Shown in pieces: positions 10,159-34,586 of a stretch of DNA of 38,726 nt. Origin of the DNA: a virus; the IMG/VR virus record IMGVR_UViG_3300045993_000264, positions 1 through 38,726 of that record; one strand, written 5' to 3'. Under the pieces are notes generated by a model. It worked only from the letters and a program-made list of their open reading frames with translations, ran no database searches and had not been told where the DNA came from. Made by a program: the position numbers and the translations under genes. Position 1 is the stretch's first letter, and each line of letters begins with the position of its first letter.

Positions 10159-10413
10159 TTAATAATGTTCCGAAACATCAAGCTTCTGATTCTTTTCTTG
10201 GTTGGCAAGTATATCGACAGCACTATCAAGAAGTTTAATCAGCGAATCTATAGCTATTCCATAACCCTTGTGCATTTCGTTATACTGAGGGTTATCGTTC
10301 TTAAAGGCTTCGTAGTTTATAGACGACAACTCTTGTAGATATTCTTTTAATTCTATTCCTTCACCAGAAGCAGACAGACGGCTAAAAAGCCTTAAAATAT
10401 CATTATTATGCAA
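10159..10413 (-). CDS. Small helical late protein
   Basis: 84 residues. Its ATG overlaps the last codons of the portal gene by eight bases, so it is translationally coupled to the portal. The sequence is helical and amphipathic (IAIDSLIKLLDSAVDILANQ). No signal or membrane segment is visible and no family is recognised. It could be an assembly cofactor of the portal. Confidence 0.55.
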   Translation of the reverse strand: MHNNDILRLFSRLSASGEGIELKEYLQELSSINYEAFKNDNPQYNEMHKGYGIAIDSLIKLLDSAVDILANQEKNQKLDVSEHY

Positions 10414-12529
10414 GGTTTACACCCGCCTTAGAGCCATCGGGATTAGCACCTTGTGCTTGTTGTACTCCACCACCACCATTAGCTGATTGACCATTCATCT
10501 GATTAGGATCAGCTTCTTGTTGCTGTACTCCTGCTTGTGACATAAGAATTTGTTGTATCTGTGCTTCTGCATCCAAAGAACCATCAAGACGATCTAAGTC
10601 AGGCAGTTTTATGTCCTGGCCTTTGATGATCTGTGCCAAGAGTGCTCCGATGTTTTTTGCTCCGAGTATCTGCATGTAGGCAGGGTTAGCTACCATCTGT
10701 AGCAGTTCTATTTTTTGGTGAGACTGTTGTTCTCTTGCAAGTAATCCACTTACCCCTTTTGCTACAACACGTGCGTCACCCTTTATGCTTGGGTCGTCAC
10801 TGAACTTCATTTGGAAGTCGTAACACATCTGTATATATGGTGTGATAATGTCATCATCAATATTCGCTACAACTGCTTTAATACTTCTACTCGCAGCAGC
10901 AAGTAGCTGAGTAAATACCGTTGCAGTACCCGCTGTAACCCCAGACTGACTTGCACCTTGTGCGTAAGCCGGTACTGTCATCTCGTCTAATACTTTGCTC
11001 AAGAATTGCCATGCGCTAATAAGCTCCTGTAGGTGCATCTGTGGTTGATAGTAGTTGACAGCAGGGCCATCGTTTTTCATCTGCATAGAGGTAGAACGTA
11101 TCTTTCTCCACGGGTATATCGGTGTGTTCTCTTCGATACGGTCTTTGTCTTCTTCTACCATAGGCCCAGAAGCTATAGCAGCGTTGTTGATAAGAGCACG
11201 CATAAGAGCGTTCATTGCGTCTTCAAGAGGTGCAGCGAACTCAAGCAGACCTTCACCCCAGATTGACTCAGGATTCTTAGCCCATGATGAAACGTGGTAG
11301 GGTTTACGTCCAAGTGTATCTGGGTTGATAACAGCCTTGATAACGTGATCGCCTATCTTCCAGCAGTTAGCTTGGTACTGCATGTGCGGGTCAAGTTCAC
11401 CTTCTGCTCCCCAATCCAAAAGCAACTGCCCGGAAACAGAACCGTAGAACTCTTGTGCAAATATAGTATCGCTATTGAGGTCAGACGAATTAGAGGTAGG
11501 TGGTGTGGTATTCTGTGTCGCAGAGAAGTCTTTTGTTACTTGACGGACGGCTGTTTCATCTTCGATAGTAAACCACTTGGCTTTCAGATCGCCTTTACCA
11601 TACTTATCAAGGACAAGGCGTATCTCTTCTTCACTGTATCCCGGAACACCAATCAAGTCAGAAATAGCTTGCTTGCTAAGTTCGTGGATTTCTACTACAT
11701 CACCATCATTAATTGACTTCATCCCACGACTAGGAAAGAAGTTGAACGGGCTGACGCAATACACATCATTAACAAGGGTATCTATGGTGGTAAGTTCATA
11801 CCCGCCCGTAGCTTCATTAGGTTGCCACGTTTGCTTCTTTTTCTTGGTAAGAATTGGCCCTTTGATTACCCCTGCTTTAAGACGTATGAAGTAGTATAAG
11901 AACTCTTTAAAAGCGTCGTTCCATCCACCTTCTTGGTTCTGGTCGCGGATTACATCGGAAGCTCTTTTACAGCGTTCCTTTGCATCTTCAAGAAGATCTT
12001 CCTGTGCTTTATCAAGCTCTTGCTCATAATACTCTTGCATGAGCTTGGCAACTTCGTTAGGATCGGGCATCACCCCAGAAGCTATAATCTCTTGTTCTAT
12101 CTGTGCTGCTTGCTGTTGTGTCTGTTGCTGAATGATCTGGCGCGTTTCGTCGGGAAGTTCAGGTACAGCGGTAGGTTCTAGATTCCAAGGAAGGTCAGTA
12201 TCTCCACGGTAAATATCTTTTATCCAAGAGTCTGCTGCTCTAGCTTTAGCTTCACCAGAACGGATATAGGCTTCGCTACCTTTAAAGGCACGAATAGCAG
12301 CAAGCTTAACAGGATCGTATTCGCCTTTGACACGACGACAAAGATCAACCATCTTCTTACGGTTTTCTTTGTTTTCCTTTTGGAGTTGATCCCAGACCTT
12401 ACCAATACGGATAGCAAGCTTTTTAACTACTTGGTTATCCTGTTGTGGCTTAACTATGGCTTCGTGCAAGAAAGCTAAGTCACCGGCTGGATCAGGCTGC
12501 GTGTTAGGCTGATTTATAGGCAGGGGCAT
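10406..12529 (-). CDS. Portal protein (P22-type, large)
   Basis: 707 residues, close to the 725 of P22 portal. Recognisable features are the N-terminal helical segment KARAADSWIKDI with PWNLEPTAVPELP, a Gln-rich helical stretch (about 135-150), DGPAVNYYQPQMHLQELISAW, and a Gln/Asn/Gly-rich C-terminus. It forms the dodecameric ring at one vertex through which DNA enters and leaves. RBS AGAAGG precedes the ATG, and a CTGTC/GACGACA hairpin lies in the leader. It is the largest gene in the window and sits between terminase and scaffold genes as expected. Confidence 0.85.
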   Translation of the reverse strand: MPLPINQPNTQPDPAGDLAFLHEAIVKPQQDNQVVKKLAIRIGKVWDQLQKENKENRKKMVDLCRRVKGEYDPVKLAAIRAFKGSEAYIRSGEAKARAADSWIKDIYRGDTDLPWNLEPTAVPELPDETRQIIQQQTQQQAAQIEQEIIASGVMPDPNEVAKLMQEYYEQELDKAQEDLLEDAKERCKRASDVIRDQNQEGGWNDAFKEFLYYFIRLKAGVIKGPILTKKKKQTWQPNEATGGYELTTIDTLVNDVYCVSPFNFFPSRGMKSINDGDVVEIHELSKQAISDLIGVPGYSEEEIRLVLDKYGKGDLKAKWFTIEDETAVRQVTKDFSATQNTTPPTSNSSDLNSDTIFAQEFYGSVSGQLLLDWGAEGELDPHMQYQANCWKIGDHVIKAVINPDTLGRKPYHVSSWAKNPESIWGEGLLEFAAPLEDAMNALMRALINNAAIASGPMVEEDKDRIEENTPIYPWRKIRSTSMQMKNDGPAVNYYQPQMHLQELISAWQFLSKVLDEMTVPAYAQGASQSGVTAGTATVFTQLLAAASRSIKAVVANIDDDIITPYIQMCYDFQMKFSDDPSIKGDARVVAKGVSGLLAREQQSHQKIELLQMVANPAYMQILGAKNIGALLAQIIKGQDIKLPDLDRLDGSLDAEAQIQQILMSQAGVQQQEADPNQMNGQSANGGGGVQQAQGANPDGSKAGVNLA

Positions 12530-13170: not shown

Positions 13171-14652
13171 TCAAACCATTGCTTGCATGTAATTACGTAT
13201 ATCTGTCACTTTCTCTCTTTCTTTAATTTGTTGTGGATAACTCCACATCTGCGGTTCAGCATTAAGCAAGTAACGTAGGGCATCTAGGAGATGGTCGTTT
13301 GTCTTAGCTATCTTACCGCTTGTATCCCTATGGTAGAGACTCATCTCTCTCATAAGTGCTGTACACGACTTGAACACTTTGAGCCTTCCGCTAGTCAACC
13401 TTTCCCATACATTAAAGATACCGGCTTCCACTGCATTGTTAGCAGGATATATCTTCAAGCCTTCCTTTCGGTAGAGCGTATAAAGGCTTTGTCCATCTAT
13501 CTGACTACGCCCTCTAGCAGCCGGGTCAATAACACCTTTTATCCACTCTCCACGCGCCTTGATAGCTTTAGCGTGTATAACTGGTTCGGCTTGGCCTTGT
13601 TTATGTTCCGAGTAGATGTAGATCACATCATTGTCTTTATCCCAAGCACCAAAGCAACATGCTGTGTTATTCCAACCAACGTCCATCCCATAGAGTTTCG
13701 TGAAGTGTTTAGGTATTTGAAAGTCATCTACTGTTATGTTCTTTGGATCAACCGGATAGACCAAGCCTTCACCAACAGTAGGCTTACCTTCAGATCGTGC
13801 TTCTCTCAACTGCGGAGGAGTAGCAGCCAGCATCTTGGCTTTCATCTCTTCGCTTATGTGGGGTACGTCTTTCCATCCACATATCGTCACCCATTTAGGG
13901 TCTTTAGAATCTGTCTCTTGTGAGTTATCCAAGAAAGACAACACAACTTCAGTAAGACCAGACAACGGAGTAAAGGTCATTATCAAGCTACCGTTAGTCG
14001 TCATCAGTCGAATTAAGGCTTCACCGTATACGTCTTGTGGCGGCTCCTCATCCAACCAGATAAAGTCTACTTCAGCACCTTGCCAAGATACTCGTCCTTG
14101 CTCATACGACTTTAGGACTATTGTGCTAACACCACCCGTTATGTGCTTGATCCGAATAGTCTCTATAGCATCAGGTACGTTTCTGCGTGTCTTGTACTCT
14201 ACGATGCTATCCTTTGGTATCATCCCACTACCAGTATCGCTAATCTCCCCTAGTAGCTTTTTCTGTACAATATCTCTAAGAGTAGTAGCAGTATCCCCAC
14301 CGACCCAAATAAGCACAGGACGATTAAACCTAAGACCTTCCCACCATTCAGGATACATTCCAGTAGCATGACACGTTACCTCATAAGACCCTGCCTCTGA
14401 CTTTCCTACTCGGTTTCCTGCAATAAAGCCGCGTTCTGTGTACTTATTACCTGCTCCAAAGAACTCAATGTGCTTCGGGTAGAGAGCACGGTTGTACTCA
14501 CCTTCATCTGGAAAGTAGTTCTTGAACTTATTGTACTTCTGATCGTCAGCTAGAATCTCTAAGCACTCTATCAGCTCTGCTTGCTGTTGAGCGTCTAGCT
14601 GCGAAGCGTATGTGTCTATCAACGACTTGGTAAGGCTATCTAGCAAGCTCAC
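13171..14652 (-). CDS. terL: Terminase large subunit (packaging ATPase/nuclease)
   Basis: 493 residues from a GTG with GAGG seven bases ahead. Walker A is AGNRVGKS (residues about 78-85), Walker B is VDFIWLDEE (about 195-203), and a coupling motif TFTPLSG follows (about 226-232). The C-terminal nuclease has GMDVGWN (Asp about 324), VIDPAARG (Asp about 376) and NDHLLDALRY near the end. It cuts concatemeric DNA and drives it into the procapsid through the portal. It is followed by small genes and the portal, the usual order. Confidence 0.92.
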   Translation of the reverse strand: MSLLDSLTKSLIDTYASQLDAQQQAELIECLEILADDQKYNKFKNYFPDEGEYNRALYPKHIEFFGAGNKYTERGFIAGNRVGKSEAGSYEVTCHATGMYPEWWEGLRFNRPVLIWVGGDTATTLRDIVQKKLLGEISDTGSGMIPKDSIVEYKTRRNVPDAIETIRIKHITGGVSTIVLKSYEQGRVSWQGAEVDFIWLDEEPPQDVYGEALIRLMTTNGSLIMTFTPLSGLTEVVLSFLDNSQETDSKDPKWVTICGWKDVPHISEEMKAKMLAATPPQLREARSEGKPTVGEGLVYPVDPKNITVDDFQIPKHFTKLYGMDVGWNNTACCFGAWDKDNDVIYIYSEHKQGQAEPVIHAKAIKARGEWIKGVIDPAARGRSQIDGQSLYTLYRKEGLKIYPANNAVEAGIFNVWERLTSGRLKVFKSCTALMREMSLYHRDTSGKIAKTNDHLLDALRYLLNAEPQMWSYPQQIKEREKVTDIRNYMQAMV

Positions 14653-15990: not shown

Positions 15991-16019
15991 TTACTGTAAC
16001 TATTGTTCTACTGTATAAC
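15991..16019 (+). promoter_or_regulatory. Candidate rightward promoter
   Basis: TTACTG and TATAAC are separated by 17 bases, pointing to the genes at 16169. The -35 box is weak and the -10 box good. It overlaps the second copy of TTGTTCTACTGT. Confidence 0.35.
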
Positions 16020-16063
16020 ACGCTGTTGTATGTAGGTATATGTTGTAGCCGATACTACTCATA

Positions 16064-16092
16064 ATCTCTCTTAGGTAAGAGATGTCTTTTTT
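16064..16092 (+). terminator. Terminator-like hairpin followed by TTTTTTGTTTGGGGGT
   Basis: ATCTCT pairs with AGAGAT over an eight-base loop and is followed by a six-T run and GTTTGGGGGT. The 16-base tail is repeated exactly at 16515-16530 after a second terminator. Confidence 0.5.
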
Positions 16093-16102
16093 GTTTGGGG
16101 GT
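16087..16102 (+). repeat. 16-base direct repeat, copy 1
   Basis: TTTTTTGTTTGGGGGT, identical to 16515-16530. Both copies follow a hairpin and precede a short gene start. Confidence 0.7.
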
Positions 16103-16168
16103 ATCTCTACTTCGTAGCTACATCACCCTATTTCACTACTTAACTAAACTATTACAGGAGGTTAGCTT

Positions 16169-16303
16169 ATGTTCAGTATCTTTGAAGAACAGCACAGAGT
16201 GTGTGACGTGTGTGCATTCATCACGGTGATGTGTGTTTCGTTATCTGTTTTCTTCGTTACTTTGTACTTACTAGGTGGATTACTGAAAGGAGCTTCTATA
16301 TGA
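16169..16303 (+). CDS. Small membrane peptide
   Basis: 44 residues, with a perfect AGGAGG seven bases before the ATG. A single hydrophobic helix spans about residues 15-39, with a Cys-rich start (CDVCAFITVMC). It overlaps the next gene by ATGA. It is too small and too isolated from lysis genes to be named a holin. It could be a membrane-active accessory peptide. Confidence 0.6.
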   Translation: MFSIFEEQHRVCDVCAFITVMCVSLSVFFVTLYLLGGLLKGASI

Positions 16304-16437
16304 GCAGTCTGATGGCTTGGACGTTAGCTAATGAGCAGGCTGTATATGGGTTAGAGGGTTGTTTCCTTCCTGATCTTTACTTGGAGATTAGTTATTGGAG
16401 TAGGTATTCCAAAGGAACTACATGGTGGGCTAAGTAA
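16300..16437 (+). CDS. Small Trp/Tyr-rich peptide
   Basis: 45 residues starting MSSLMAWTLANEQAVYG and ending in TTWWAK. AAAGGAG lies seven bases ahead, and the start is coupled to the preceding gene by ATGA overlap. There is no membrane helix. The aromatic content is high. The family is unknown. Confidence 0.55.
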   Translation: MSSLMAWTLANEQAVYGLEGCFLPDLYLEISYWSRYSKGTTWWAK

Positions 16438-16480
16438 GCAGTCTTTTAGCAGGATTTTATGGAGTAATTATAGGCTTTTG

Positions 16481-16520
16481 AATCCTTTCTTAGTCTCTTT
16501 GGGTAAGAAGGGATTTTTTT
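16481..16520 (+). terminator. Strong Rho-independent terminator
   Basis: AATCCTTTCTTA pairs with TAAGAAGGGATT (12 pairs, one G-U) around an 11-base loop, followed by seven T. It ends the transcript of the two small genes at 16169-16437. Confidence 0.85.
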
Positions 16521-16530
16521 GTTTGGGGGT
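16515..16530 (+). repeat. 16-base direct repeat, copy 2
   Basis: Same sequence as 16087-16102. The following sequence also resembles the first copy (TTCATAGCT versus TTCGTAGCT), which suggests duplication of a terminator-leader module. Confidence 0.7.
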
Positions 16531-16635
16531 TGTGTTGTTTCATAGCTCAATTCCTTCCTTTTGAACGTGTTTTTAGCGGGTACTTATCCAATCGAAGAAG
16601 ATAAGACCTTAAATTTAGCAGTCGAGGAGTATCAA

Positions 16636-16968
16636 ATGAGCAGACAGATCGAAATCATGGTTAATGCACAGTGTTCGGGTGAAGTTACTCTTGCTCGTAT
16701 CCGTGGAGTACAGAATGCAAAGACGATCAAGATTACCAACGCAAAGCAGCTTGTAGGCTTGCCTAAGAACAGCGGAGCTATCATTTCAGTAGATGGCTTT
16801 GTTGAGCAGGGTAACTACCTTATTCCTACTAATTGTAAAGTTGTAGACGTGCACATTAGCGGGAAAGCAGTCGCACTTGATGATGTTCTTGGTACTACCG
16901 AACCCGACGCTAAGCAGGCGATAGCAGACGCAGGAGAAGTAGAAGTGGACTTTGAACCAGTCTTTTAG
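16636..16968 (+). CDS. Hypothetical phage protein, beta-rich
   Basis: 110 residues from the ATG at 16636, chosen because GAGGAG lies six bases ahead; an upstream TTG has no such site. Alternating hydrophobic strands (AIISVDGFVEQGNYLIPTNCKVVDVHISG) suggest a compact beta fold, and the C-terminus is acidic. No family recognised. It stands between two terminators, so it is largely a unit of its own with the small genes that follow. Confidence 0.6.
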   Translation: MSRQIEIMVNAQCSGEVTLARIRGVQNAKTIKITNAKQLVGLPKNSGAIISVDGFVEQGNYLIPTNCKVVDVHISGKAVALDDVLGTTEPDAKQAIADAGEVEVDFEPVF

Positions 16969-17053
16969 CAGGCTTTGAGCTAGGCATCTCTTTAAACTGC
17001 CTAACAATCCACAACATCTCGACAAGGCCAAATAACTTGTGAGGTGAAACCCT

Positions 17054-17116
17054 ATGGAAGCAGTCATCATATCAATGCTGTTGCTCTTTGCTATTTATAA
17101 GGTAGCAACAGCGTAA
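17054..17116 (+). CDS. Tiny hydrophobic peptide
   Basis: 20 residues (MEAVIISMLLLFAIYKVATA) that would form one membrane helix. GAGGTG precedes the ATG. Being so short it could be chance, but the ribosome site and clean hydrophobicity favour a real membrane micropeptide. Confidence 0.45.
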   Translation: MEAVIISMLLLFAIYKVATA

Positions 17117-17135
17117 CCAGACAAGGGAGATCGAC

Positions 17136-17261
17136 ATGAAAGTGCGTGAGTTAAACACAGGCAGGCTGATCGTATCACCTAATGCTAAGAGCTTAGACGG
17201 CAACGTTACAACGATTGTAGAGGGTAAGGTTTACGTAGCAAGCGACTATTACTACAGCTAA
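17136..17261 (+). CDS. Small beta-strand protein
   Basis: 41 residues with GGGAG ahead of the ATG and a strong terminator right behind the stop. The pattern KVRELNTGRLIVSPNAKSLDGNVTTIVEG alternates polar and hydrophobic residues and should be mostly beta. No family recognised. It is the last gene before the terminator at 17269. Confidence 0.6.
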   Translation: MKVRELNTGRLIVSPNAKSLDGNVTTIVEGKVYVASDYYYS

Positions 17262-17268
17262 GCAGCAC

Positions 17269-17311
17269 AAAGAAGCGACGACCTGTAGCGGGTTGTTGCT
17301 TCTTTCTTTTT
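17269..17311 (+). terminator. Strong Rho-independent terminator
   Basis: AAAGAAGCGACGACC pairs with GGTTGTTGCTTCTTT (15 pairs, two G-U) around a short loop, followed by a T-rich tail. It separates the 16.6-17.3 kb genes from the DUF932 unit. Confidence 0.88.
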
Positions 17312-17363
17312 CAACACCGTAGCTTCTTTTGTAATTATTGATACATCAAATCCTAACGTCTCT

Positions 17364-17430
17364 TTTCAATTCCAGTTTTCAACTTCTTTTCATTTTTAAA
17401 CAATACGCTTGAACTAAAATTGAATATGTA
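17364..17430 (+). promoter_or_regulatory. Half-sites of the putative repressor operator
   Basis: Two TTCAA (17365, 17378) and two TTGAA (17409, 17420) units lie in 60 bases. The last is part of AATTGAATATG, the same 11-mer found at 19635 and, reversed, at the repressor start. TATAAT follows at about 17439, but the spacing to TTGAAT is only 14, so a promoter is uncertain. Confidence 0.4.
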
Positions 17431-17468
17431 GTACACACTTATAATTAAAACTATAGGAGCGTTATTGC

Positions 17469-17621
17469 ATGATATGGGCAAAACATCTTCCAAGCGATAA
17501 GCGGGAAATCAATCGAAGACCTTTCAGATTCATAGCGGATTCAAGCGGTAGAGAAGTACCAGTTATACACAGCAAGTTTGGTGGCAAGAACCATAAAGCC
17601 TACGTAAATAGACAGCAATAA
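17469..17621 (+). CDS. Small basic protein
   Basis: 50 residues with AGGAG about eight bases ahead. It begins MIWAKHLPSDKREINRRPFRF and is basic throughout, with no membrane segment. It is probably co-transcribed with the DUF932 gene 16 bases downstream. A small DNA-binding or regulatory protein is possible; the family is not recognised. Confidence 0.55.
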   Translation: MIWAKHLPSDKREINRRPFRFIADSSGREVPVIHSKFGGKNHKAYVNRQQ

Positions 17622-17637
17622 AACCAAAGGAGAATAT

Positions 17638-18567
17638 ATGAGACTTTCTAGGACAGCAACAAGCATTACCAAGGAAGCAATCACGATTGATGCGTTTAAA
17701 GAGAAAGCTTTCTTTCAGGTGTATGAAACACCTAACGCTTATTTAGATCAATTCGGTACGTGGCAGAAATCACCGGATAAGAAATCGTTGATACATAGTG
17801 ATGGTAGTTACATCTCTACTGTAGGTTCTAACTATAGCATTGTAGATAATCAGCACTATTTTGAGTCAGTCATTAATGCACTCGATGATGGTGGCATTCA
17901 TTACGTTCCAAAAAATGTCTATGTTGATGCTGGTGGTAAGCGCACTACTATGGTTGTTACCCTTCCTCAGTTTAATCTATTCCCGCACACAAGCGAAGCA
18001 CAAGACTTTGAGCTACGTATTCGCAACTCTTTTGATACCACACTAGCAGCAGATACCATACTTGGCTTCTTGCGTCTTATTTGCACGAATGGCATGACTG
18101 CTTTTGATAAGTCATTTGAGTATCGGATGATCCATAAGGGCAACATCACAAGCAAAGCAGAAGGAGCTATTGAGCTTTATAAGCAGTTTAATGGTGTTTG
18201 GACAAGCACTAAGGAAAAGATCGAAGTAATGGCAGATAGCTTTGGCAATAAGAAGGCAGTCGCTAAGTACATTGGTGATGGTGAAGTGTCTCTTAACTCT
18301 ATGTTCAAAGGTGAACGGTGGGCAAAGAGGCTACAAGAAGAATGGCAGTCGCAGAATGAGACAACTAATCTCTGGGACATTTACAACATGATGACACACA
18401 TCATAAGCCACAATTACGGTTCTAACTATTCTAGCAAAATCAACAAAATGGAGGAGTTGAATCGTGAAGTAAAGAAATGGGACAGCATCTTTGAAGTTAC
18501 TCGTAACGTACCTACCTATGTTGATACCTATCATCAAGAAAAGGAGCTTATGTATGTTAATTATTAA
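17638..18567 (+). CDS. DUF932-type phage/plasmid-like protein
   Basis: 309 residues with AAAGGAG before the ATG. The layout matches the DUF932 (TIGR03299-type) family: an N-terminal GTWQKSPDKKSLIHSDGSYISTVGSNYSIVDN block, then RTTMVVTLPQF, LRIRNSFD, LRLICTNGM and an end with FEVTRNVPTY. These proteins are common in phages and plasmids, and their function is unknown. It sits behind a region of repressor-type half-sites, so it may be repressed in lysogeny. It overlaps the next small gene. Confidence 0.75.
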   Translation: MRLSRTATSITKEAITIDAFKEKAFFQVYETPNAYLDQFGTWQKSPDKKSLIHSDGSYISTVGSNYSIVDNQHYFESVINALDDGGIHYVPKNVYVDAGGKRTTMVVTLPQFNLFPHTSEAQDFELRIRNSFDTTLAADTILGFLRLICTNGMTAFDKSFEYRMIHKGNITSKAEGAIELYKQFNGVWTSTKEKIEVMADSFGNKKAVAKYIGDGEVSLNSMFKGERWAKRLQEEWQSQNETTNLWDIYNMMTHIISHNYGSNYSSKINKMEELNREVKKWDSIFEVTRNVPTYVDTYHQEKELMYVNY

Positions 18568-18685
18568 CAAAGTAGAGAATGGATTTATTGTGAATGACAC
18601 AGTTACTTCAAAAATGTGGGTAGCAAAAGGTTACTACGATGTAACAGACGTTGTACGAGAAGTATTTAAAGAAGATGAAGATTAA
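18554..18685 (+). CDS. Small acidic protein
   Basis: 43 residues, start chosen at 18554 because AAGGAG lies seven bases ahead. It overlaps the end of the DUF932 gene in another frame, so the two are coupled. The C-terminus is acidic (REVFKEDED). A terminator follows immediately. No family recognised. Confidence 0.55.
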   Translation: MLIINKVENGFIVNDTVTSKMWVAKGYYDVTDVVREVFKEDED

Positions 18686-18696
18686 TAAGGCAAACC

Positions 18697-18726
18697 AAGA
18701 AGGCGAGGGGCAACTCTCGTCTTTTT
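18697..18726 (+). terminator. Terminator after DUF932 pair
   Basis: GGCGAG pairs with CTCGTC (one G-U) over an eight-base loop, flanked by A and T runs and followed by TTTTTC. Confidence 0.7.
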
Positions 18727-18789
18727 CATTTGTTTTATTAACGCAGCGAGGTGCTACCGAGCAACACCAAATCAAAGGAGGTAAACAAA

Positions 18790-19032
18790 ATGATTAAGCA
18801 AACAACGGGGCCTTGGCATATTGGCAAAGACTTACGCATTATAGGCGCAGATAACGAAAGAATTGCAAGAATTGATAACAATATAAATGTAGATGGGTTA
18901 ACTAATGCCCGTCTAATCGCTGCTGCACCAGATATGTTAGAAGCACTGGAAAATCTTATTATGTTTCCGCTTGGTAACTTCCAAGTAGAAGCGGCACGAA
19001 AAGCTATATCAAAGGCAAAGGGGGAAATATGA
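18790..19032 (+). CDS. Conserved small phage protein (GPWHI...NARLIAAAPDMLEAL family)
   Basis: 80 residues, with AGGAGG ahead of the ATG. The pattern GPWHIGKDLRIIGADNERIARI, then NARLIAAAPDMLEALENL and AARKAISKAKG, is a widespread small family in phages and prophages. Its function is unknown. It overlaps the next gene by four bases. Confidence 0.8.
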   Translation: MIKQTTGPWHIGKDLRIIGADNERIARIDNNINVDGLTNARLIAAAPDMLEALENLIMFPLGNFQVEAARKAISKAKGEI

Positions 19033-19220
19033 GAGGTTTTAGAGGTTATGACGACTGGATATTTGGTCTAGGTGAAAATCAATTTGATAAAAGTGAAGAG
19101 TGCATAGATGAGCTTAATTGTGAATGTGATGATTGCACTTGTTCACGTAACCTAGCGGATTTAGAAGAATATGGAGATTATCTGTATGAGCAAGAGAAAG
19201 ACAAACGCTTAGGATTATAA
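19029..19220 (+). CDS. Small acidic Cys-containing protein
   Basis: 63 residues, coupled by ATGA overlap to the previous gene. It has CECDDCTC in the middle (a possible metal-binding knot) and is otherwise acidic. No family recognised. Confidence 0.6.
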   Translation: MRGFRGYDDWIFGLGENQFDKSEECIDELNCECDDCTCSRNLADLEEYGDYLYEQEKDKRLGL

Positions 19221-19229
19221 GGAGGAGTT

Positions 19230-19331
19230 ATGTGTGAATGGTGTAAGCACGAACCGTGTGACTGTGATGAGCAATACGAACGTTATAGAGAGTTTGAATA
19301 CATTGATAGGGTAAGTAGATATGGACATTAG
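19230..19331 (+). CDS. Tiny Cys/His knuckle protein
   Basis: 33 residues starting MCEWCKHEPCDCDE, with GGAGGAG before the ATG. The CxxC and CxC arrangement suggests metal binding. It overlaps the next tiny gene. Confidence 0.6.
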   Translation: MCEWCKHEPCDCDEQYERYREFEYIDRVSRYGH

Positions 19332-19398
19332 CACGACGGTAGGTTTCTGGTTAGTAGGAAGTTTTATGATGATCTGGATATTTAGTCTATACCGATAA
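19321..19398 (+). CDS. Tiny membrane peptide
   Basis: 25 residues, nearly all one hydrophobic helix (GFWLVGSFMMIWIF) ending in YR. It overlaps the previous gene by 11 bases and has no strong ribosome site, so it depends on coupling. Moderate confidence. Confidence 0.4.
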   Translation: MDISTTVGFWLVGSFMMIWIFSLYR

Positions 19399-19417
19399 CA
19401 ACACAGGAGGTAACACA

Positions 19418-19582
19418 ATGGGTAACTATATGTGCAGTCGGTGTGGATCAGCAGAGTTTGCTATTGATTCTCACTACAACCCAAAGAAGCTTGAAGAGCA
19501 GCTTGATGTATTTTGTAGGAACTGTAATAGCCATCAAGGGTTATTACAGCAAGCAATAAGGATATTAAAACTGGCAGCATAA
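19418..19582 (+). CDS. Small zinc-ribbon protein
   Basis: 54 residues with AGGAGG ahead of the ATG. Two CxxC knuckles (CSRCGS and CRNCNS) are about 26 residues apart, followed by a short helix. It should fold as a zinc ribbon and may bind nucleic acid or protein. It is one of at least six such small genes in this genome. Confidence 0.7.
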   Translation: MGNYMCSRCGSAEFAIDSHYNPKKLEEQLDVFCRNCNSHQGLLQQAIRILKLAA

Positions 19583-19634
19583 GCGTAAATAGCTGTCAGA
19601 CGCAGTGAGAGGCTGTTTAAGGCGTTTTTATTAC

Positions 19635-19660
19635 AATTGAATATGTGACTATGGGTTCAA
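19635..19660 (+). promoter_or_regulatory. Putative operator site
   Basis: AATTGAATATGTG followed by GGGTTCAA: TTGAA and TTCAA half-sites 14 bases apart. The 11-mer AATTGAATATG is shared with 17418 and 23439-23449. It lies in a 106-base gap before the zinc-ribbon gene at 19689. Confidence 0.4.
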
Positions 19661-19688
19661 CAATAAAACGGCTTTAAAAGGGCTTATA

Positions 19689-19877
19689 ATGGATTGTCCA
19701 AAGTGCAAAACTCAAAATGCCATATTCGGTTCATACGATTACTTGGATTCAAGGAACAAATGTTGGAGTTGTGGGTTATCACATGTACCGGGAAGTGAGT
19801 ACGCATCACTAGAACGACAGATAACTGGTAAGTGGAATCCTTTAGGCGGTGCGAATGAAGAAGCAGACTGCGCTTAG
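19689..19877 (+). CDS. Small zinc-ribbon protein
   Basis: 62 residues: MDCPKCKTQNAIFG, then CWSCGLSH, giving two CxxC knuckles about 24 residues apart, with a polar helical C-terminus (SLERQITGKW). No membrane segment. It overlaps the next gene by 23 bases. The family is the generic phage zinc ribbon. Confidence 0.65.
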   Translation: MDCPKCKTQNAIFGSYDYLDSRNKCWSCGLSHVPGSEYASLERQITGKWNPLGGANEEADCA

Positions 19878-20043
19878 AATATTAAAGGATTGCCTTACCG
19901 AAAAAGATCTACCAAAAGTCAAGCAACAAGCTGATTGGGTACTATGTGAAACACTGCTTAACAGAGGAGAGCACCACATAGTTACAGCGTGGATAGAAGT
20001 AATGGATAGGTTGCAACATTTAAGAGAGGAAGGGATGACATGA
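19855..20043 (+). CDS. Small helical protein
   Basis: 62 residues from ATG 19855 (an in-frame GTG lies two codons earlier). Helical and basic at the start, with two Leu/Trp helices. It overlaps the zinc-ribbon gene in front and shares ATGA with the gene behind. No family recognised. Confidence 0.55.
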   Translation: MKKQTALRILKDCLTEKDLPKVKQQADWVLCETLLNRGEHHIVTAWIEVMDRLQHLREEGMT

Positions 20044-20273
20044 ATAAAGATATGTTTGATGCTTTAGTACAGTGGCAGCAGGACTTAACAAGTGAACGAG
20101 CAGTTAGCATTGATATAGGTAAAGCAGGAGATCGTGATGCTATAAAAATATGGTGCTACGACATGAAAGCATCCACAGGTAAGTTTGTTAATAGCCCTAG
20201 TGACCTAGAAGGTCTTGATTTTGTTGCACTAAGGCGTGCTCAACTTGAAGAGCAATTGGCGATGCTAAACTAA
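20040..20273 (+). CDS. Small hypothetical protein
   Basis: 77 residues, ATGA-coupled to the preceding gene. It contains AVSIDIGKAGDRDAIKIWCYDM, beta-alpha-like, and a helical end (ALRRAQLEEQLAML). No recognised family. It is the last gene before the long non-coding stretch. Confidence 0.6.
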   Translation: MNKDMFDALVQWQQDLTSERAVSIDIGKAGDRDAIKIWCYDMKASTGKFVNSPSDLEGLDFVALRRAQLEEQLAMLN

Positions 20274-20345
20274 TTATGTATTTCAATAACTTTTGTTATC
20301 GATTTTTATAACAAGCTATATCAAATTTGATACAGAAAACAGATG

Positions 20346-20374
20346 TTGACAATTCAAAGTTGAATGTGTAAATT
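20346..20374 (+). promoter_or_regulatory. Rightward promoter with embedded palindromic operator
   Basis: TTGACA and TAAATT are 17 bases apart. The spacer contains the perfect palindrome ATTCAA-AG-TTGAAT (20352-20365), the same arrangement as the early promoter at 23468. A second pair TTCAA...TTGAA follows at 20373-20387. It drives the structured RNA region. Confidence 0.7.
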
Positions 20375-20380
20375 CAAGAA

Positions 20381-20503
20381 AGTTGAAACGAGGACGAATA
20401 GATATGTAACTGGTAGCAGCCAGACAATAGACCTTCCACCCTGATTGCAAAGCAAGATGGGATAAAAAGGAAACCTACTAGCTGCTACTAGTGGGTTTTT
20501 TTG
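20381..20503 (+). ncRNA. Structured leader RNA with competing helix and terminator
   Basis: No reading frame of note. CTGGTAGCAGC (20410-20420) can pair with GCTGCTACTAG (20481-20491) over 11 pairs. The latter overlaps the terminator stem CCTACTAG/CTAGTGGG (20474-20495), which is followed by seven T. A stacked hairpin lies between (CCC/GGG, a three-by-three UGA/GAU internal loop, then TTGC/GCAA with an AAA loop). The long helix and the terminator are mutually exclusive, as in riboswitches and attenuators. No known riboswitch class is recognised. It could also be a free small RNA. Confidence 0.6.
20474..20503 (+). terminator. Terminator of the leader RNA
   Basis: CCTACTAG-CTGCTA-CTAGTGGG (eight pairs, one G-U) followed by TTTTTTT. 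Confidence 0.8.
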
Positions 20504-20510
20504 TTTTAAA

Positions 20511-20865
20511 GTCTATGTAGTGCGGGGATAACCAGCGGGAACCATAGGCAGTAAGGCACTACCGGCTCCAAGGTGCAGCGCAAGCAAGAGGGAGATGCGT
20601 GGATAGGGCGATCACAGTGGTCGAATGCTCCCAACAACCTAACCAATAACTGTTGATGGTTAGGCCTTTACCAATCATACGAATACTCAGAGAGCTAAAG
20701 AAGACATCAAACTTCATAGCTTACGGTAAAGGGACTTAGGCATTCCAAGTATACGTCATTGTACGTGTGCTATAGGGATGCCTTTACCTAAAACACATCA
20801 CCAAAGCCTAGAGAGCTAAGAAAAGCAAAAGAAAGCTATAGCGAGCTATATAGAAAGGAACAATT
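20511..20865 (+). ncRNA. Second structured non-coding RNA region
   Basis: About 355 bases without a plausible gene but dense in stems: GTCTAT (20511-20516) with ATAGGC (20544-20549); GTAGTGC (20517-20523) with GCACTAC (20556-20562), crossing the first; GGGAG/CTCCC (20590/20628); CCTAACCA/TGGTTAGG (20638-20664); GAGCTA...TAGCTT with inner GAAG/CTTC (20692-20722); and a long arm 20725-20788. CCTTTACC occurs twice (20665, 20781) and GGTAAAGG once between them (20725), allowing alternative pairing. It may be a long 5' leader of the zinc-ribbon genes or a replication origin. Confidence 0.5.
20725..20788 (+). other. Long hairpin arm in the non-coding region
   Basis: GGTAAA/TTTACC, then after an eight-base bulge GGCATTCC/GGGATGCC, then AGTATACGT/ACGTGTGCT, closed by CATTGT: about 23 pairs including three G-U. 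The wobble pairs and bulge suggest an RNA rather than a DNA palindrome. Confidence 0.65.
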
Positions 20866-20964
20866 ATGTGCAGTTCATGGTGCTCAAAGTGTGGTGGAAC
20901 AGTACATATCAAAAACAAAAGAAACTATTGCGATAAATGTGGATACCAAGAAGGGAGTCGATAA
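20866..20964 (+). CDS. Tiny zinc-ribbon protein
   Basis: 32 residues: CSSWCSKCGG and CDKCGYQEG, two CxxC knuckles. AAAGGA precedes the ATG. The stop and next start share bases (TAATG). Nearly the minimal size for a zinc ribbon. Confidence 0.6.
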   Translation: MCSSWCSKCGGTVHIKNKRNYCDKCGYQEGSR

Positions 20965-21074
20965 TGTGCGCTAAAGGTGTCGGTGGGCCCATATGTCTTA
21001 GGTGTCGGAATGAGTGTGACATAAAAGGTGTAGATAACAAAGTGATATGCCCTAAATGTGGGTGGACACGATGA
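20964..21074 (+). CDS. Tiny zinc-ribbon protein
   Basis: 36 residues: CLRCRNEC and CPKCGWTR knuckles. It overlaps both the previous and the following gene by one to four bases and looks like a divergent relative of its neighbour at 20866. Confidence 0.6.
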   Translation: MCAKGVGGPICLRCRNECDIKGVDNKVICPKCGWTR

Positions 21075-21217
21075 TAGATAAAAAACATAGAAAATCTAAA
21101 AATGTAAGCAAAAACAGTAAGAAAGTAATACAAGGAATGCTTAAAGTTAATGAGAAGCAGACTGATATAAAACATAAATTGATGCAAAAGTTTTTACAAA
21201 AGATTGGAGTAGAATAG
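21071..21217 (+). CDS. Small highly basic protein
   Basis: 48 residues, nearly one third Lys (MIDKKHRKSKNVSKNSKKV), helical at the end. ATGA-coupled to the zinc ribbon. A nucleic-acid-binding peptide is plausible. Confidence 0.5.
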   Translation: MIDKKHRKSKNVSKNSKKVIQGMLKVNEKQTDIKHKLMQKFLQKIGVE

Positions 21218-21218
21218 C

Positions 21219-21461
21219 GTGCCTAGCATCGACATAACTTTCTGCCAAAGAGAAAATAACCAGTGCAAGAAAAGACTCAAGTGCTTCAGATATACTTATG
21301 TACCTAAACCGGAGGACTTAACGTGGTATGGGGATTACTGGAATAACTTTGGAAAAGAATGTAAAGAGTTTATTGAAGATAAAAACCATACGAGACAAGA
21401 AGTATATGGAATGGATCAAGACGCTACCGTGCATAATATGCCAAAGGAATACTCCTTCTGA
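21219..21461 (+). CDS. Small Cys-rich phage protein
   Basis: 80 residues from GTG. The pattern CKKRLKCFRYTYVPKPEDLTWYGDYWNNFGKECKEFI matches a small family seen beside HNH genes in phages (Cys pair, FRY, aromatic, KxCKxF). The C-terminal part overlaps the HNH gene in another frame by up to 134 bases. The function is unknown. Confidence 0.6.
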   Translation: MPSIDITFCQRENNQCKKRLKCFRYTYVPKPEDLTWYGDYWNNFGKECKEFIEDKNHTRQEVYGMDQDATVHNMPKEYSF

Positions 21462-21648
21462 TCCTCACCATACTAAAACAGGCGGCAAAGGTATCAAAGC
21501 GTGTGACTATACCTGCGTGCCTTTGTGCCACAAACACCACGTAGAAATACACACTGTTGGTACAAGAACGTTTCAGCGGATATATGATGTTGATTTTGAT
21601 ACAGTTTGCGAAAGATTGGTAGGTATCTACAAAAATGAGCCAATTTGA
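21328..21648 (+). CDS. HNH-type nuclease-like protein
   Basis: 106 residues as given; an inner ATG at 21406 is an alternative that reduces the overlap with the preceding gene. The core WIKTLPCIICQRNTPSDPHHTK...VPLCHKHHVEIH has CxxC, HH and CxxHH metal and catalytic positions, as in DUF968/HNH phage proteins that act on DNA structures or recombination. A GGAGG lies 12 bases before 21328. It is the last rightward gene before attP and ends before a terminator. Confidence 0.75.
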   Translation: MGITGITLEKNVKSLLKIKTIRDKKYMEWIKTLPCIICQRNTPSDPHHTKTGGKGIKACDYTCVPLCHKHHVEIHTVGTRTFQRIYDVDFDTVCERLVGIYKNEPI

Positions 21649-21666
21649 GCCATAATAGACAAGAAA

Positions 21667-21703
21667 AAAGGGGTTACGTTTATGGCGTAATCCCTTTAGT
21701 TTA
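21667..21703. terminator. Bidirectional terminator between HNH gene and attP
   Basis: AAAGGGGTTACG pairs with CGTAATCCCTTT (12 pairs, one G-U). On the minus strand it is followed by TTTTTTC, so it should also end the leftward integrase operon. Confidence 0.8.
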
Positions 21704-21704
21704 T

Positions 21705-21750
21705 TGGCGCGCCCGACAGGATTCGAACCTGTGGCCGATGCCTTAGAAGG
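21705..21750 (-). other. attP: attP core: 3' half of tRNA-Arg(UCU)
   Basis: Read on the minus strand: CCTTCTAAGG (anticodon loop with UCU), variable CGGCC, T-arm ACAGG-TTCGAAT-CCTGT, acceptor CGGGCGC, discriminator G, CCA. The sequence upstream of the anticodon loop does not continue as a tRNA, so this is the identity block by which integration restores the host gene. The terminator lies just beyond. The partner attB should be a host tRNA-Arg(UCU). Confidence 0.85.
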
Positions 21751-21786: not shown

Positions 21787-21972
21787 CTATTCGACATTAT
21801 TTTTGGTGCACGAGCTATCAACCGTTACAGACAAAATTGATCGTTGTGGTGCTTGTGAAGGATCGTAAAGAGAGTTAGGTCGGTTAAGCCAATCAATATT
21901 AGCGATAATACGATCACTCTCTTCTATAGCTTCTTCGACGTAAGACTTATCTTGTTTACGCTGCTTCATCAT
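21787..21972 (-). CDS. Small protein downstream of integrase
   Basis: 61 residues, start overlapping the end of the integrase gene by 17 bases. Acidic/helical (YVEEAIEESDRIIANIDWLN) with a polar tail. It lies between integrase and attP, a place where some phages keep excisionase, but it lacks a visible winged-helix or AlpA-type motif, so Xis is not claimed. Confidence 0.5.
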   Translation of the reverse strand: MMKQRKQDKSYVEEAIEESDRIIANIDWLNRPNSLYDPSQAPQRSILSVTVDSSCTKNNVE

Positions 21973-23080
21973 TTACCTCCGGTTTACTTTGCGCCTCTGG
22001 TTTAACTCTCGACAATCTCATTATCTCTTTTGTCAAGAAAGTAGGTATCAACTTAGTATACATTTCTGTTGTCTTGGAAGAACTATGACCCATAAGTAAT
22101 TGCACGCTTCTTAGATTAGCTCCTTGCATTAACATGTGCGTACCAAAGCAATGACGAAGTACATGGTGAGTAACGTGTGAGCTAATACCAGCTTTCTTAC
22201 AAAGGGTAGTCAATGACTTTTTAAGAGAAGTATAAGGTTTCTTGGTCTTAGGATTAGCGAAGAGCAGTCGTTGTGGATTCTTTAAAGATAATTTCATTCT
22301 AGGTTCTAGTAATTCCCTTAATTCGGGCGTGATAGGCACGATTCGATGCTTCTCGCCTTTACCAACAACTATCAGAAATCCATTGTAAAGGTCTACTTGC
22401 TCATACGTTATACCCCTAGCATCACCAATACGCAAACCACCAAAATACATAAGCTTGATAAGCGCACCCCTGTTATCGTCCGGCAGCAACTTTATAACCT
22501 CATCTATTTGGGTAGACGTGGGTAAAGTTTTGGGAGGTGGTTGCGTTTTGTTACTTGGAAATCGTTCAATCTTAAAACCAATATCGTTACAAAACCCTTC
22601 ATCTTTGCTGTATTTTATCATTACACTTAAATAGTTCAAGAGCTTATTAACGGTTGCAGGCTTAACCTTACGTGAAGCGTTACATTCTACGGTTCGGGTT
22701 ATCATGTGGGTTTTGAACTGAGTAATAAGCTGTTGTGTTATTTGGGAGAAATGTTTCGATCCAAAGAACGGCAACAAATCATGCTCCCACACTGTTTCAA
22801 AGTGATTGGTTGTGCTTGCACTAACCCGCAGCCTGTAGTTAGCTAAAAAATCAACGTACACATCACAGAGTCTTGGGTCTGCATGGATAGGCTTGATCTT
22901 TTTTGTTTGGCGGATTCGTCCCTGTTCATAGAGTTTCGCCTCTTCGTAGGAACATGGCCCTAGGATGATACGTTCTTTACGATTCTCACGCTTGCCTGTC
23001 TTAGGATTGATACCTCTACCATAAGGATAGTGCACGACGACATAGCAATTCTTTATGTCTGGATGGGGTGTTACGGACAT
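21956..23080 (-). CDS. int: Tyrosine recombinase integrase
   Basis: 374 residues. Catalytic set visible: Arg in GGLRIGDARG (about 217), Lys in GKGEKHR (about 241-244), HVLRH (His 306, Arg 309), GH (His 332) and the nucleophile Tyr 341 (KTTEMYTKL). The N-terminal DNA-binding and SAM-like domains (about 70-175) are complete. It joins attP to the host tRNA-Arg gene and, with a directionality factor, excises it. It lies one base after the repressor stop, so both are made from the lysogenic leftward transcript. Confidence 0.92.
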   Translation of the reverse strand: MSVTPHPDIKNCYVVVHYPYGRGINPKTGKRENRKERIILGPCSYEEAKLYEQGRIRQTKKIKPIHADPRLCDVYVDFLANYRLRVSASTTNHFETVWEHDLLPFFGSKHFSQITQQLITQFKTHMITRTVECNASRKVKPATVNKLLNYLSVMIKYSKDEGFCNDIGFKIERFPSNKTQPPPKTLPTSTQIDEVIKLLPDDNRGALIKLMYFGGLRIGDARGITYEQVDLYNGFLIVVGKGEKHRIVPITPELRELLEPRMKLSLKNPQRLLFANPKTKKPYTSLKKSLTTLCKKAGISSHVTHHVLRHCFGTHMLMQGANLRSVQLLMGHSSSKTTEMYTKLIPTFLTKEIMRLSRVKPEAQSKPEVNDEAA

Positions 23081-23081
23081 G

Positions 23082-23465
23082 TTATTTGGCCTTTTCTTCG
23101 CAGTCTAATTGTAAAGCTAACATAAGTAACTTCTTGCGTTTACTGTCAGGCCATTGAGCTAAGAGATTTTGAATCAGTTGAGTTTCTGGCGGCATGTGGT
23201 TTCCCCCTACATGAACAGTGTTGTTATCTCCATTGACTACACCAACACCTTTAATTTTATTAGCACGATTCATAATAAGAGGCGGAACACCCGTCTTACG
23301 CCAGTTTGAAACTGAACTAACTCCTCGATCTAATTGCATAGCAAGCTCCGTATCTGTTTTACAATCCAAAAAAGCCTTTAATTCCTCAACGCTCACATTT
23401 CCTTTGTCACTAACACTTCCCATATCATGTCCAACTTTCATATTCAATTTTATGTTCAAATTCAC
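23082..23465 (-). CDS. Short CI-type repressor
   Basis: 127 residues from a GTG at 23465. Later in-frame ATGs at about 23441 and 23420 are possible, and the earlier codons overlap operator half-sites, so the true start may be internal. The helix-turn-helix is TELAMQLDRGVSSVSNWRKTGVP, as in Phage_CI_repr proteins. A polar hinge (GDNNTVHVGGN) and a short helical C-terminus follow. There is no LexA-type peptidase domain, so RecA-driven self-cleavage is not expected. It is divergent to the early operon and co-transcribed with integrase. Confidence 0.75.
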   Translation of the reverse strand: MNLNIKLNMKVGHDMGSVSDKGNVSVEELKAFLDCKTDTELAMQLDRGVSSVSNWRKTGVPPLIMNRANKIKGVGVVNGDNNTVHVGGNHMPPETQLIQNLLAQWPDSKRKKLLMLALQLDCEEKAK

Positions 23466-23467
23466 TA

Positions 23468-23496
23468 TTGACTTATTTCAAATTTGAAGTTATATT
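23468..23496 (+). promoter_or_regulatory. Early rightward promoter with embedded operator
   Basis: TTGACT and TATATT are 17 bases apart. The spacer holds the perfect palindrome TTCAA-AT-TTGAA (23477-23488). On the opposite strand TAGACA and TATAAC (spacing 19) could serve the repressor-integrase transcript and overlap the same operator. Repressor binding here would block the early operon. Confidence 0.7.
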
Positions 23497-25124: not shown

Positions 25125-25535
25125 ATGAACTTCTTAGAATGGCGATACAAAGAATATCCAGAAGACCAGCTAAGCGACAAAGGTTTAGCGTATATGGAAG
25201 CTGCTTGGAATGCCGGATACGAAGAACAAAAGAAAAAGAGAATAGCAGCAAAGCTTAAAGTAAAAGATTTAGGTGGATATACCGAACACTTTGAAACTTT
25301 CTGGAAAGACTACCCGAAACGTGTAGCAAAAGGGGCAGCTTATCAAGCTTGGAAGAAGATTAACCTAGACGAAGCTTTCTTGTTGCTATCGTGTCGGAAT
25401 GCTTTGGAATGGCAAATTCAATCCAAATCTTGGAAGGATGGCTATATCCCTAATCCAGAGACATACCTTAATCAACGTAGATGGGAAGACGAAGCACAAA
25501 CAATTCAACGAAAATCGCTCGGTGACTTAATATGA
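25125..25535 (+). CDS. Replication organiser / helicase-loader-like protein
   Basis: 136 residues. The C-terminal part FETFWKDYPKRVAKGAAYQAWKKI ... WKDGYIPNPETYLNQRRWEDE is the conserved end of many phage replication initiators and DnaT/O-like loaders. The usual N-terminal winged-helix DNA-binding domain is missing, so it is short. It overlaps the helicase gene by ATGA, which supports a joint role. Confidence 0.7.
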   Translation: MNFLEWRYKEYPEDQLSDKGLAYMEAAWNAGYEEQKKKRIAAKLKVKDLGGYTEHFETFWKDYPKRVAKGAAYQAWKKINLDEAFLLLSCRNALEWQIQSKSWKDGYIPNPETYLNQRRWEDEAQTIQRKSLGDLI

Positions 25536-26410
25536 GCACCGTCAGAAGAACATCTGACTTCTACGATAATCTGGTGGAGTATTCAAAAAATGACTTTGGC
25601 AGAGATGGCTTCCTAAGTGGAATTACTTGTATAGATGAATTCACAGTTTTTAGAAAAGGAATGTTAGCAGTCTTTACCGGCCACAGCGGTAGCGGGAAGA
25701 GTGAGCTAGTAGATCAACTCTGTATGCAATGGGCGATGTTGCACGGCTTTAAGACGTTGTTCTTTTCACCAGAGAATGCTCCTTTAGCTAGTCATGCCAA
25801 GAAGCACATTGAAAGATACTTTGGCAAGTCTATACGTCAACTTAAACCTACACAGATTAAAGAAGGTTGTGCGTTTATAGATGATTACTTTGGGATGATT
25901 GACCTCGGAGAAGAAGAAGTAGCTTCTATAGACATGCTACTTGAAGTTGCCAAGAAAGAAATGAAAGAGCGTCCTTTCGATATTATTGTCTTTGATCCTT
26001 GGAATGAATGTGATTTCGGGTTAAGCGATAGAGAAGACTTGTACATCTCCAAGAAGATTACCCAGATCAAAAAGTTCCTCAGAGCAAACAAGACGCTCGG
26101 TATCATCGTAGCGCACCCACGTACACCTAGAGAAAAGGTAACAGACGACAAAGGGCGTATGGACTACCCACCACCAAAGTTGCACGAAATATCAGGTGGT
26201 GGTAACTGGAAGAACAAATGTGATTGGGGTATTAGCTGCCACCGTCATCCAGAAGACAACGAACTAAGAATCCAGCTACAAAAGGTTAAAGACCGCACGC
26301 TCGGTGTTATGGGCGAGCTTTGGTTGGACTACGACAGAACAACCGGAAGATTCAAATGTAAAGGCGATGAAGGCTTTTATCTGCCAAATGAGATTGAGCC
26401 TGCGTTTTGA
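25532..26410 (+). CDS. DnaB/RecA-fold replicative helicase-like ATPase
   Basis: 292 residues. Walker A GHSGSGKS (about 50-57), Walker B DIIVFDPWNE (about 150-158), and HEISGGGNWKNKCDWGI matching the arginine-finger/hexamer region of DnaB-like and gp4-like helicases. It has no N-terminal primase part. It unwinds DNA at the fork, working with the CHC2 protein encoded next. Conserved phage AAA/RecA helicase family. Confidence 0.8.
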   Translation: MSTVRRTSDFYDNLVEYSKNDFGRDGFLSGITCIDEFTVFRKGMLAVFTGHSGSGKSELVDQLCMQWAMLHGFKTLFFSPENAPLASHAKKHIERYFGKSIRQLKPTQIKEGCAFIDDYFGMIDLGEEEVASIDMLLEVAKKEMKERPFDIIVFDPWNECDFGLSDREDLYISKKITQIKKFLRANKTLGIIVAHPRTPREKVTDDKGRMDYPPPKLHEISGGGNWKNKCDWGISCHRHPEDNELRIQLQKVKDRTLGVMGELWLDYDRTTGRFKCKGDEGFYLPNEIEPAF

Positions 26411-31753: not shown

Positions 31754-32287
31754 ATGGCACGAAAGCCCAGGTTCAACAAAAGAATATTACGTAGTGGATT
31801 AGAAGACAAAGTAGCAGCCGACTTAAAAGAACGAGGAATAGCTTATGTCTATGAAGGAATCAAACTCAAATATGTCAAAGAGTGCTGTCCCCACTGCGGA
31901 GAATCTGTTTCCGTCTGCACCTACACCCCCGATTTCATTATCGAACGACACGATAGAATACGGCTTATCGTTGAGTCTAAAGGCTATTTCCCTAGTAGTG
32001 ACCGGACGAAGATGCAAAGAGTCAAGCGAGACAACCCTCAAGAAGATATACGAATTCTTTTTCAACGAGATCAACCAATTAGAAAAGGAAGCAAAACAAC
32101 TTACAGGACGTGGAGTTTAAACAACGGGTTCGACTGCGCCTTTGGATCATCAATACCTAACGAATGGATACTAGGTGAAGACACGAAGACACCACAACAA
32201 CAAGGGAAGACGACAGATACAAAGAGGAAAGACCGAGCAACAAGTAGAAAGAATAGCACGAAGACTGCGAATACCACTCTGGACTGA
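31754..32287 (+). CDS. Phage endonuclease I (Holliday-junction resolvase)
   Basis: 177 residues. SGLEDKVAADL (Glu 17), YVYEG (Glu 34), YTPDF (Asp 60) and VESKG (Glu 74, Lys 76) are equivalent to the Glu 20, Glu 35, Asp 55, Glu 65 and Lys 67 set of T7 endonuclease I, with DRTKMQRVK and the final DIRILFQ strand. An extra Cys cluster (CCPHCGESVSVC) is inserted before the Asp, probably a zinc knuckle. It resolves branched DNA before packaging. Confidence 0.85.
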   Translation: MARKPRFNKRILRSGLEDKVAADLKERGIAYVYEGIKLKYVKECCPHCGESVSVCTYTPDFIIERHDRIRLIVESKGYFPSSDRTKMQRVKRDNPQEDIRILFQRDQPIRKGSKTTYRTWSLNNGFDCAFGSSIPNEWILGEDTKTPQQQGKTTDTKRKDRATSRKNSTKTANTTLD

Positions 32288-34151: not shown

Positions 34152-34586
34152 ATGTCAGCTATTGTTAAATTCAGACCTACAAAAACATATACAAAGCTTC
34201 CAACAAAAGGTTCAAAAGGTGCAGCCGCTTTTGATTGTTATATTCCAGAAAATTATCCAGCTTTGAATCCGGGTGAAATCAGAATTGTTAATCTTGGATT
34301 CCAAGTTGAAGTACCAATTGAATATGAGCTTCAAGTACGTGCAAGAAGCGGTCTAGCATCTAAGGGAATAATGGTAGCAAACGGAGTAGGTTGTGTTGAT
34401 TCTGATTATAGGGGTGACGTAGGGGTTATCCTTTGGAACGCTAGTGGAGCTATACAACCACTTAATCAAGGTGATCGTATTTGCCAACTAAAGCTCTCCT
34501 ACGCCCCTAATATCGTATGGGAGATGGTAGACGTAGTAGAAGAGACTGAACGTGGTAGCGGGGGATTTGGGAGCACTGGACTATGA
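34152..34586 (+). CDS. dut: dUTPase
   Basis: 144 residues. All five motifs: AAFDC, RARSGLA, NGVGCVDSDYRGDVGV, GDRICQL and RGSGGFGSTG. Trimeric enzyme that turns dUTP into dUMP and PPi, keeping uracil out of DNA and providing dUMP. ATGA-coupled to the RNA ligase gene. Confidence 0.93.
   Translation: MSAIVKFRPTKTYTKLPTKGSKGAAAFDCYIPENYPALNPGEIRIVNLGFQVEVPIEYELQVRARSGLASKGIMVANGVGCVDSDYRGDVGVILWNASGAIQPLNQGDRICQLKLSYAPNIVWEMVDVVEETERGSGGFGSTGL

Follow-up and report, generated by a model that had tools for sequence, protein, structure and literature searches.

A terminated phage leader RNA with two nearly equal predicted folds, possibly a repressor-controlled attenuator

What is the role of a short, gene-free and terminated transcript that lies between a good phage promoter and a block of small genes? 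We addressed this question in a virus record that was analysed whole (38,726 bases; hereafter referred to as the window). The 123 nt at positions 20381–20503 had been singled out from the sequence as a riboswitch-like leader RNA under repressor-type control. As our best reading, held with slightly less than even confidence, this segment is the leader of a repressor-controlled, bistable transcription attenuator.

Structural genes lie to the left of 16 kb on the minus strand, and the plus strand from 23.5 kb carries replication and nucleotide genes. The genes that orient the map are the following.

7686–8717, minus strand: major head protein
10406–12529, minus strand: portal/adaptor-like protein
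13171–14652, minus strand: terminase
21956–23080: tyrosine integrase
23082–23465, minus strand: candidate repressor, a 127-aa HTH protein with a weak Phage_CI_repr match
25532–26410, plus strand: helicase
31754–32287, plus strand: endonuclease I
34152–34586, plus strand: dUTPase
34583–35515, plus strand: RNA ligase
35509–37209, plus strand: ribonucleotide reductase

The tyrosine integrase and the 127-aa HTH protein mark the phage as temperate. The match of the latter to Phage_CI_repr (E 0.02) falls under the curated cut-off, and its structure, predicted without an alignment, was too poor for use (pLDDT 34.5). Lambda CI carries a C-terminal cleavage domain; since the candidate repressor has just 127 residues, such a domain is unlikely, and induction may require an antirepressor. 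Beside the integrase gene, a tRNA-Arg(UCU)-like sequence matching the 3′ half only (21705–21749, minus strand) is probably the attP core of the attachment site. A search for a host by this tRNA pattern found none in 369 genomes of the class.

The control of the leader was assessed from a promoter scan and from the palindromes associated with the promoters.

20319–20332: palindrome TATCAAATTTGATA, a possible second operator some 13 bases ahead of the −35 element
20346–20374, plus strand: sigma-70-type promoter, TTGACA-17-TAAATT
20353–20364: operator-like palindrome TTCAAAGTTGAA inside the spacer of this promoter
23468–23496, plus strand: PR-like promoter, TTGACT-17-TATATT, its spacer featuring TTCAAATTTGAA (23477–23488)

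The promoter at 20346 has the top score between 18 and 23 kb and is among a handful at 10/12 in the window; its spacer contains ATTCAAAGTTGAAT. Its description as a good promoter with an embedded palindrome was thus borne out. The PR-like promoter points away from the HTH gene and towards the early genes. The window contains three exact copies of TTCAANNTTGAA, whereas 0.1 would be expected from shuffled sequence. The 17-bp spacers of both good intergenic promoters (20346 and 23468) hold one copy each, and the third, at 30908, is within a coding region. The promoter of the leader and the immunity-region promoter therefore carry an identical candidate operator, and the upstream palindrome TATCAAATTTGATA has a TCAAATTTGA core in common with the PR-like operator. 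The exact recurrence of the spacer palindrome beside the HTH repressor gene supports, at the level of sequence, the repressor-type control that had been proposed.

A similar layout is known from the Qin prophage, in which DicA (135 aa) controls the dicBF operon and has operators at the immunity-region promoter and at a second, PL-like promoter making a regulatory RNA (PMC10448788). The phage protein is close in size to DicA, and the operator-like sites at two promoters suggest that a single repressor could likewise bind PR as well as a second promoter. A difference is that DicF is cut from a long mRNA (PMC10448788), whereas the phage leader has its own terminator right behind the promoter.

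Transcription from 20346 would enter a gene-free stretch that starts about 7 bases after the −10 element; no ORF of at least 60 aa covers the plus strand from 20274 to 20865. The elements of this stretch, and those that follow it, are listed below.

20390–20409, plus strand: SD-like GAGGA followed by an AUG-UAA start-stop, beside the 5′ strand of the long helix
20409–20420, plus strand: 5′ strand of the long helix, antiterminator-like
20410–20423, plus strand: hairpin 1, CUGG-UAGCAG-CCAG
20439–20461, plus strand: hairpin 2, from fold prediction
20467–20502, plus strand: intrinsic terminator with 15 pairs (some GU/AU), a hexaloop and T7
20481–20492, plus strand: 3′ partner of 20409–20420 in the long helix, covering the loop and upper 3′ arm of the terminator
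20504–20865, plus strand: second structured non-coding stretch (fold z −3.3)
20866–21648, plus strand: downstream gene block

The anticipated 120 or so bases without a gene, ending in a strong terminator, are therefore present as 123 nt with a terminator whose arms (20467–20481 and 20488–20502) enclose the loop 20482–20487 and whose T7 tract occupies 20496–20502. The stacked hairpin of the original prediction was also recovered: hairpin 2 consists of CCC/GGG, a three-by-three UGA/GAU internal loop and UUGC/GCAA around AAA. The minimum-energy fold of the whole leader is −32.7 kcal/mol (z −2.8), and the 140-nt segment starting at 20371 ranks third of 1104 genome-wide by folding z-score (−5.7).

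Such a compact three-hairpin fold, combined with an own promoter and terminator, the lack of an ORF and a U7 tail, would also suit a stand-alone sRNA of about 120 nt, made under repressor control, with the terminator as its 3′ end and with RNAs or proteins of the phage or the host as its targets in trans. Repressor-controlled prophage sRNA operons are known, dicBF under DicA being an example (PMC10448788). We nevertheless regard this explanation as somewhat unlikely. The best duplexes between the RNA and the rest of the phage were no better than those of shuffled RNA, leaving no complementary target above the controls. The usual Hfq module is expected to have a U-rich stretch ahead of the terminator; here, despite the U7 tract, only 2 U are present among the 20 nt that precede the terminator stem. 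An sRNA function would, moreover, leave unexplained both the near-equal alternative fold described below and the promoterless genes at 20866–21648.

The P4 CI and P1 C4-type RNAs are small, terminated phage RNAs with self-complementary loops, encoded near an immunity function. The leader resembles them in being small, terminated, self-complementary in its loops and close to an immunity function, but Rfam has no match for it and the phage offers no second target complementary to it, its repeat being intramolecular only. The suggestion of a P4-like immunity RNA thus finds no support.

We then consider the long-range helix, which had been described as 11 pairs between 20410–20420 and 20481–20491. 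This helix is real and gains one further pair, giving 12 pairs (11 Watson-Crick and one GU) between 20409–20420 and 20481–20492. When the alternative fold was computed by penalising terminator-internal pairs, the fold containing the long helix reached −32.4 kcal/mol, so that, in the energy model, a gap of only 0.3 kcal/mol separates it from the minimum; hairpin 2 is present in both. As a control, the 86-base segment preceding the terminator was shuffled 2000 times. A gap so small arose 27 times, an alternative fold so stable 9 times and a helix so long 3 times, figures that are not strict probabilities for a feature picked by eye beforehand. The corresponding gaps of the window's five other terminators with a hairpin stronger than −15 were 4.7, 8.5, 9.4, 10.2 and 10.9. 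The energy model thus gives two comparable, mutually exclusive folds, one of them an intrinsic terminator, and the predicted near-isoenergetic pair, in contrast to the other strong terminators of the window, supports computationally the attenuator geometry that had been claimed for this locus.

Partial transcripts were folded as well. At 105–120 nt, while the terminator is still incomplete, the long helix is partly or completely formed in the minimum fold; the terminator is preferred only at the full length of 123 nt. Masking of 20389–20419, as by a ribosome, abolished the long helix and left the terminator alone. The GAGGA and AUG-UAA motifs may be a ribosome site by the 5′ strand of the long helix; we hold this site as a candidate only, because it was noticed after the fact. 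The window has just a few AUG-UAA sites accompanied by an SD-like motif, this being one of them.

Are the two folds strictly exclusive? The top of the terminator reads CUAG-CUGCUA-CUAG, and its loop, CUGCUA, can pair without mismatch with UAGCAG, the loop of hairpin 1 (duplex −6.4). Since the two hexaloops are exactly complementary, a kissing contact could coexist with an intact terminator. The earlier statement that only one of the structures can form is correct in that the long helix takes terminator bases, namely the loop and the upper 3′ arm, but is too strong in view of this contact. Kissing could also be the natural first step towards the long helix. In a fuller version, kissing of UAGCAG and CUGCUA would zip into the 12-pair helix and a ribosome at the start-stop might read the switch, as part of a new kind of leader that is repressor-controlled and has a second structured RNA of about 350 nt before the first gene; taken as a whole, this version seems to us decidedly improbable.

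Helix and loop complementarity amount to one 15-nt inverted repeat (87%). Because the reverse complement of a hairpin is itself a hairpin, a single inverted duplication could account for both the helix and the complementary loops. This fits an insulation role, in which the terminator would close the plus-strand block at 18751–20273 and a leaky promoter transcript, whereas the inverted repeat would have arisen incidentally from two similar small hairpins, or would serve a kissing contact with no effect other than to stabilise the fold. The surroundings are in keeping with such a role, as the plus strand from 16 to 21.7 kb consists of small gene blocks in series, each with an intrinsic terminator at its end (16.5, 17.3, 18.7, 20.5 and 21.7 kb). 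We judge insulation unlikely, because the helix length and the energy gap go beyond both the shuffles and the other terminators, and because it would leave the genes at 20866–21648 without a promoter.

These genes comprise two very small Cys-rich (zinc-ribbon-like) ORFs, a 48-aa ORF, an 80-aa ORF and a DUF968/HNH nuclease gene. The plus strand from 20400 to 20866 has no promoter-like site of 8/12 or better; we therefore infer that they probably need readthrough from 20346 or from further upstream. The intervening 20504–20865 is 362 bases without a gene, and its G+C content (0.53) is the peak of the surrounding 7 kb. A predicted closing helix of 10 pairs (20512–20521 with 20845–20854; probability 0.83–0.98 per pair) stops just 5′ of the SD of the gene at 20866. 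Three strong hairpins lie one after another within this stretch, for which neither an Rfam match nor a homologue was found.

In the attenuator that we favour, promoter 20346 would be closed by the repressor in the lysogen and open during lytic growth, when it would produce the 123-nt leader. In one fold (hairpin 1, hairpin 2 and the terminator), transcription would stop at about 20502. In the other, the helix 20409–20420/20481–20492, formed around hairpin 2, would capture the loop and upper 3′ arm of the terminator, so that polymerase would proceed into 20504–20865 and the genes at 20866–21648. The choice would be made during transcription by whatever covers or frees the strand 20409–20420. 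A candidate signal is a ribosome at the SD/AUG-UAA site, occupancy of which would favour termination; other candidates are a second RNA or an RNA-binding protein of phage or host origin.

In attenuators of bacteria and plasmids, the 5′ leader of a gene block can adopt two mutually exclusive folds, of which one is a terminator. The phage leader is like these terminator/antiterminator systems in having two such folds ahead of a gene block. It is unlike them in that the 5′ strand pairs with the loop and 3′ arm of the terminator rather than with its 5′ arm, and in that neither an aptamer nor a long leader peptide was recognised. Several points weigh against the attenuator. Hairpin 1 folds first and competes with the long helix; nothing in the inverted repeat speaks against a loop-loop contact sparing the terminator; and, beyond the SD and AUG-UAA, no sensor in the form of an aptamer, leader peptide or protein site was recognised.

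A short terminated leader with two hairpins near its 5′ end, right behind a putatively repressor-controlled promoter, also recalls processive antitermination of the lambda/HK022 type. The leader RNA or early-transcribed DNA would load a factor, or the RNA would act directly like put RNA, and polymerase would then ignore the terminator at 20503 and later ones. HK022 putL is a comparable element with two stem-loops in about 70 nt, located just downstream of the early, repressor-controlled PL and ahead of a terminator (PMC9378689). A long helix to the terminator is not among the put features considered here. In a comparison with HK022 from 27.0 to 33.5 kb, a stretch picked to span PL and PR in which put sites are neither annotated nor located, no similarity to the leader was found beyond short words at chance level. 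In addition, boxA and boxB are lacking from the leader (at least 4 and at least 7 mismatches, respectively), which argues against a lambda N/nut system, and a non-exhaustive look recognised no N- or Q-like protein. We thus consider antitermination quite unlikely.

We also searched for families and relatives of the leader. At the gathering score, Rfam had no match in the window, and a search of 20250–20900 at E up to 10 gave at best E 0.39, far under the cut-off. These results uphold the statement that no known riboswitch class fits; with no Rfam family and no homologues featuring a conserved aptamer, the label riboswitch-like is not sustained in its ligand sense. The proposed blastn comparison of the region against phages and plasmids returned nothing, or chance words of about 20–43 bases, and hence no homologue of 20381–20503. 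One 24-base match to the promoter/operator, in a single genome, was rejected as chance, lying within an apparent histidine-kinase coding sequence. Relatives were sought by the terminase (110 found, 80 kept), portal, integrase, helicase, DUF932, 77-aa and HNH proteins. Structural relatives were found (terminase identity 60–74%), none of them with the leader RNA or its neighbouring genes; many are fragments short of the equivalent region. A Neptunomonas marina prophage (terminase 60%) gave no match. When viral contigs were scanned for both arms of the helix, 21 stretches came up, none with a terminator layout. The collections searched thus offer no homologue and hence no covariation, which counts against the attenuator.

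If the attenuator reading is true, an RNA decision step is added behind the phage repressor switch, part of the lytic programme is set by nascent RNA folding together with the repressor level, and the downstream structured stretch of about 350 nt is an undescribed phage RNA.

The plus strand from 16000 to 21700 also holds several tiny Cys-rich (zinc-ribbon-like) ORFs. The sequence TTTTTTGTTTGGGGG occurs at 16087–16102 and 16515–16530, each time directly behind a terminator-like hairpin. Near-identical copies of TTGAAC(A)TAAAATTGAATATG are found at 17409–17430, upstream of the gene block at 17.4 kb, and at 23433–23455 on the minus strand, at the start of the repressor gene.
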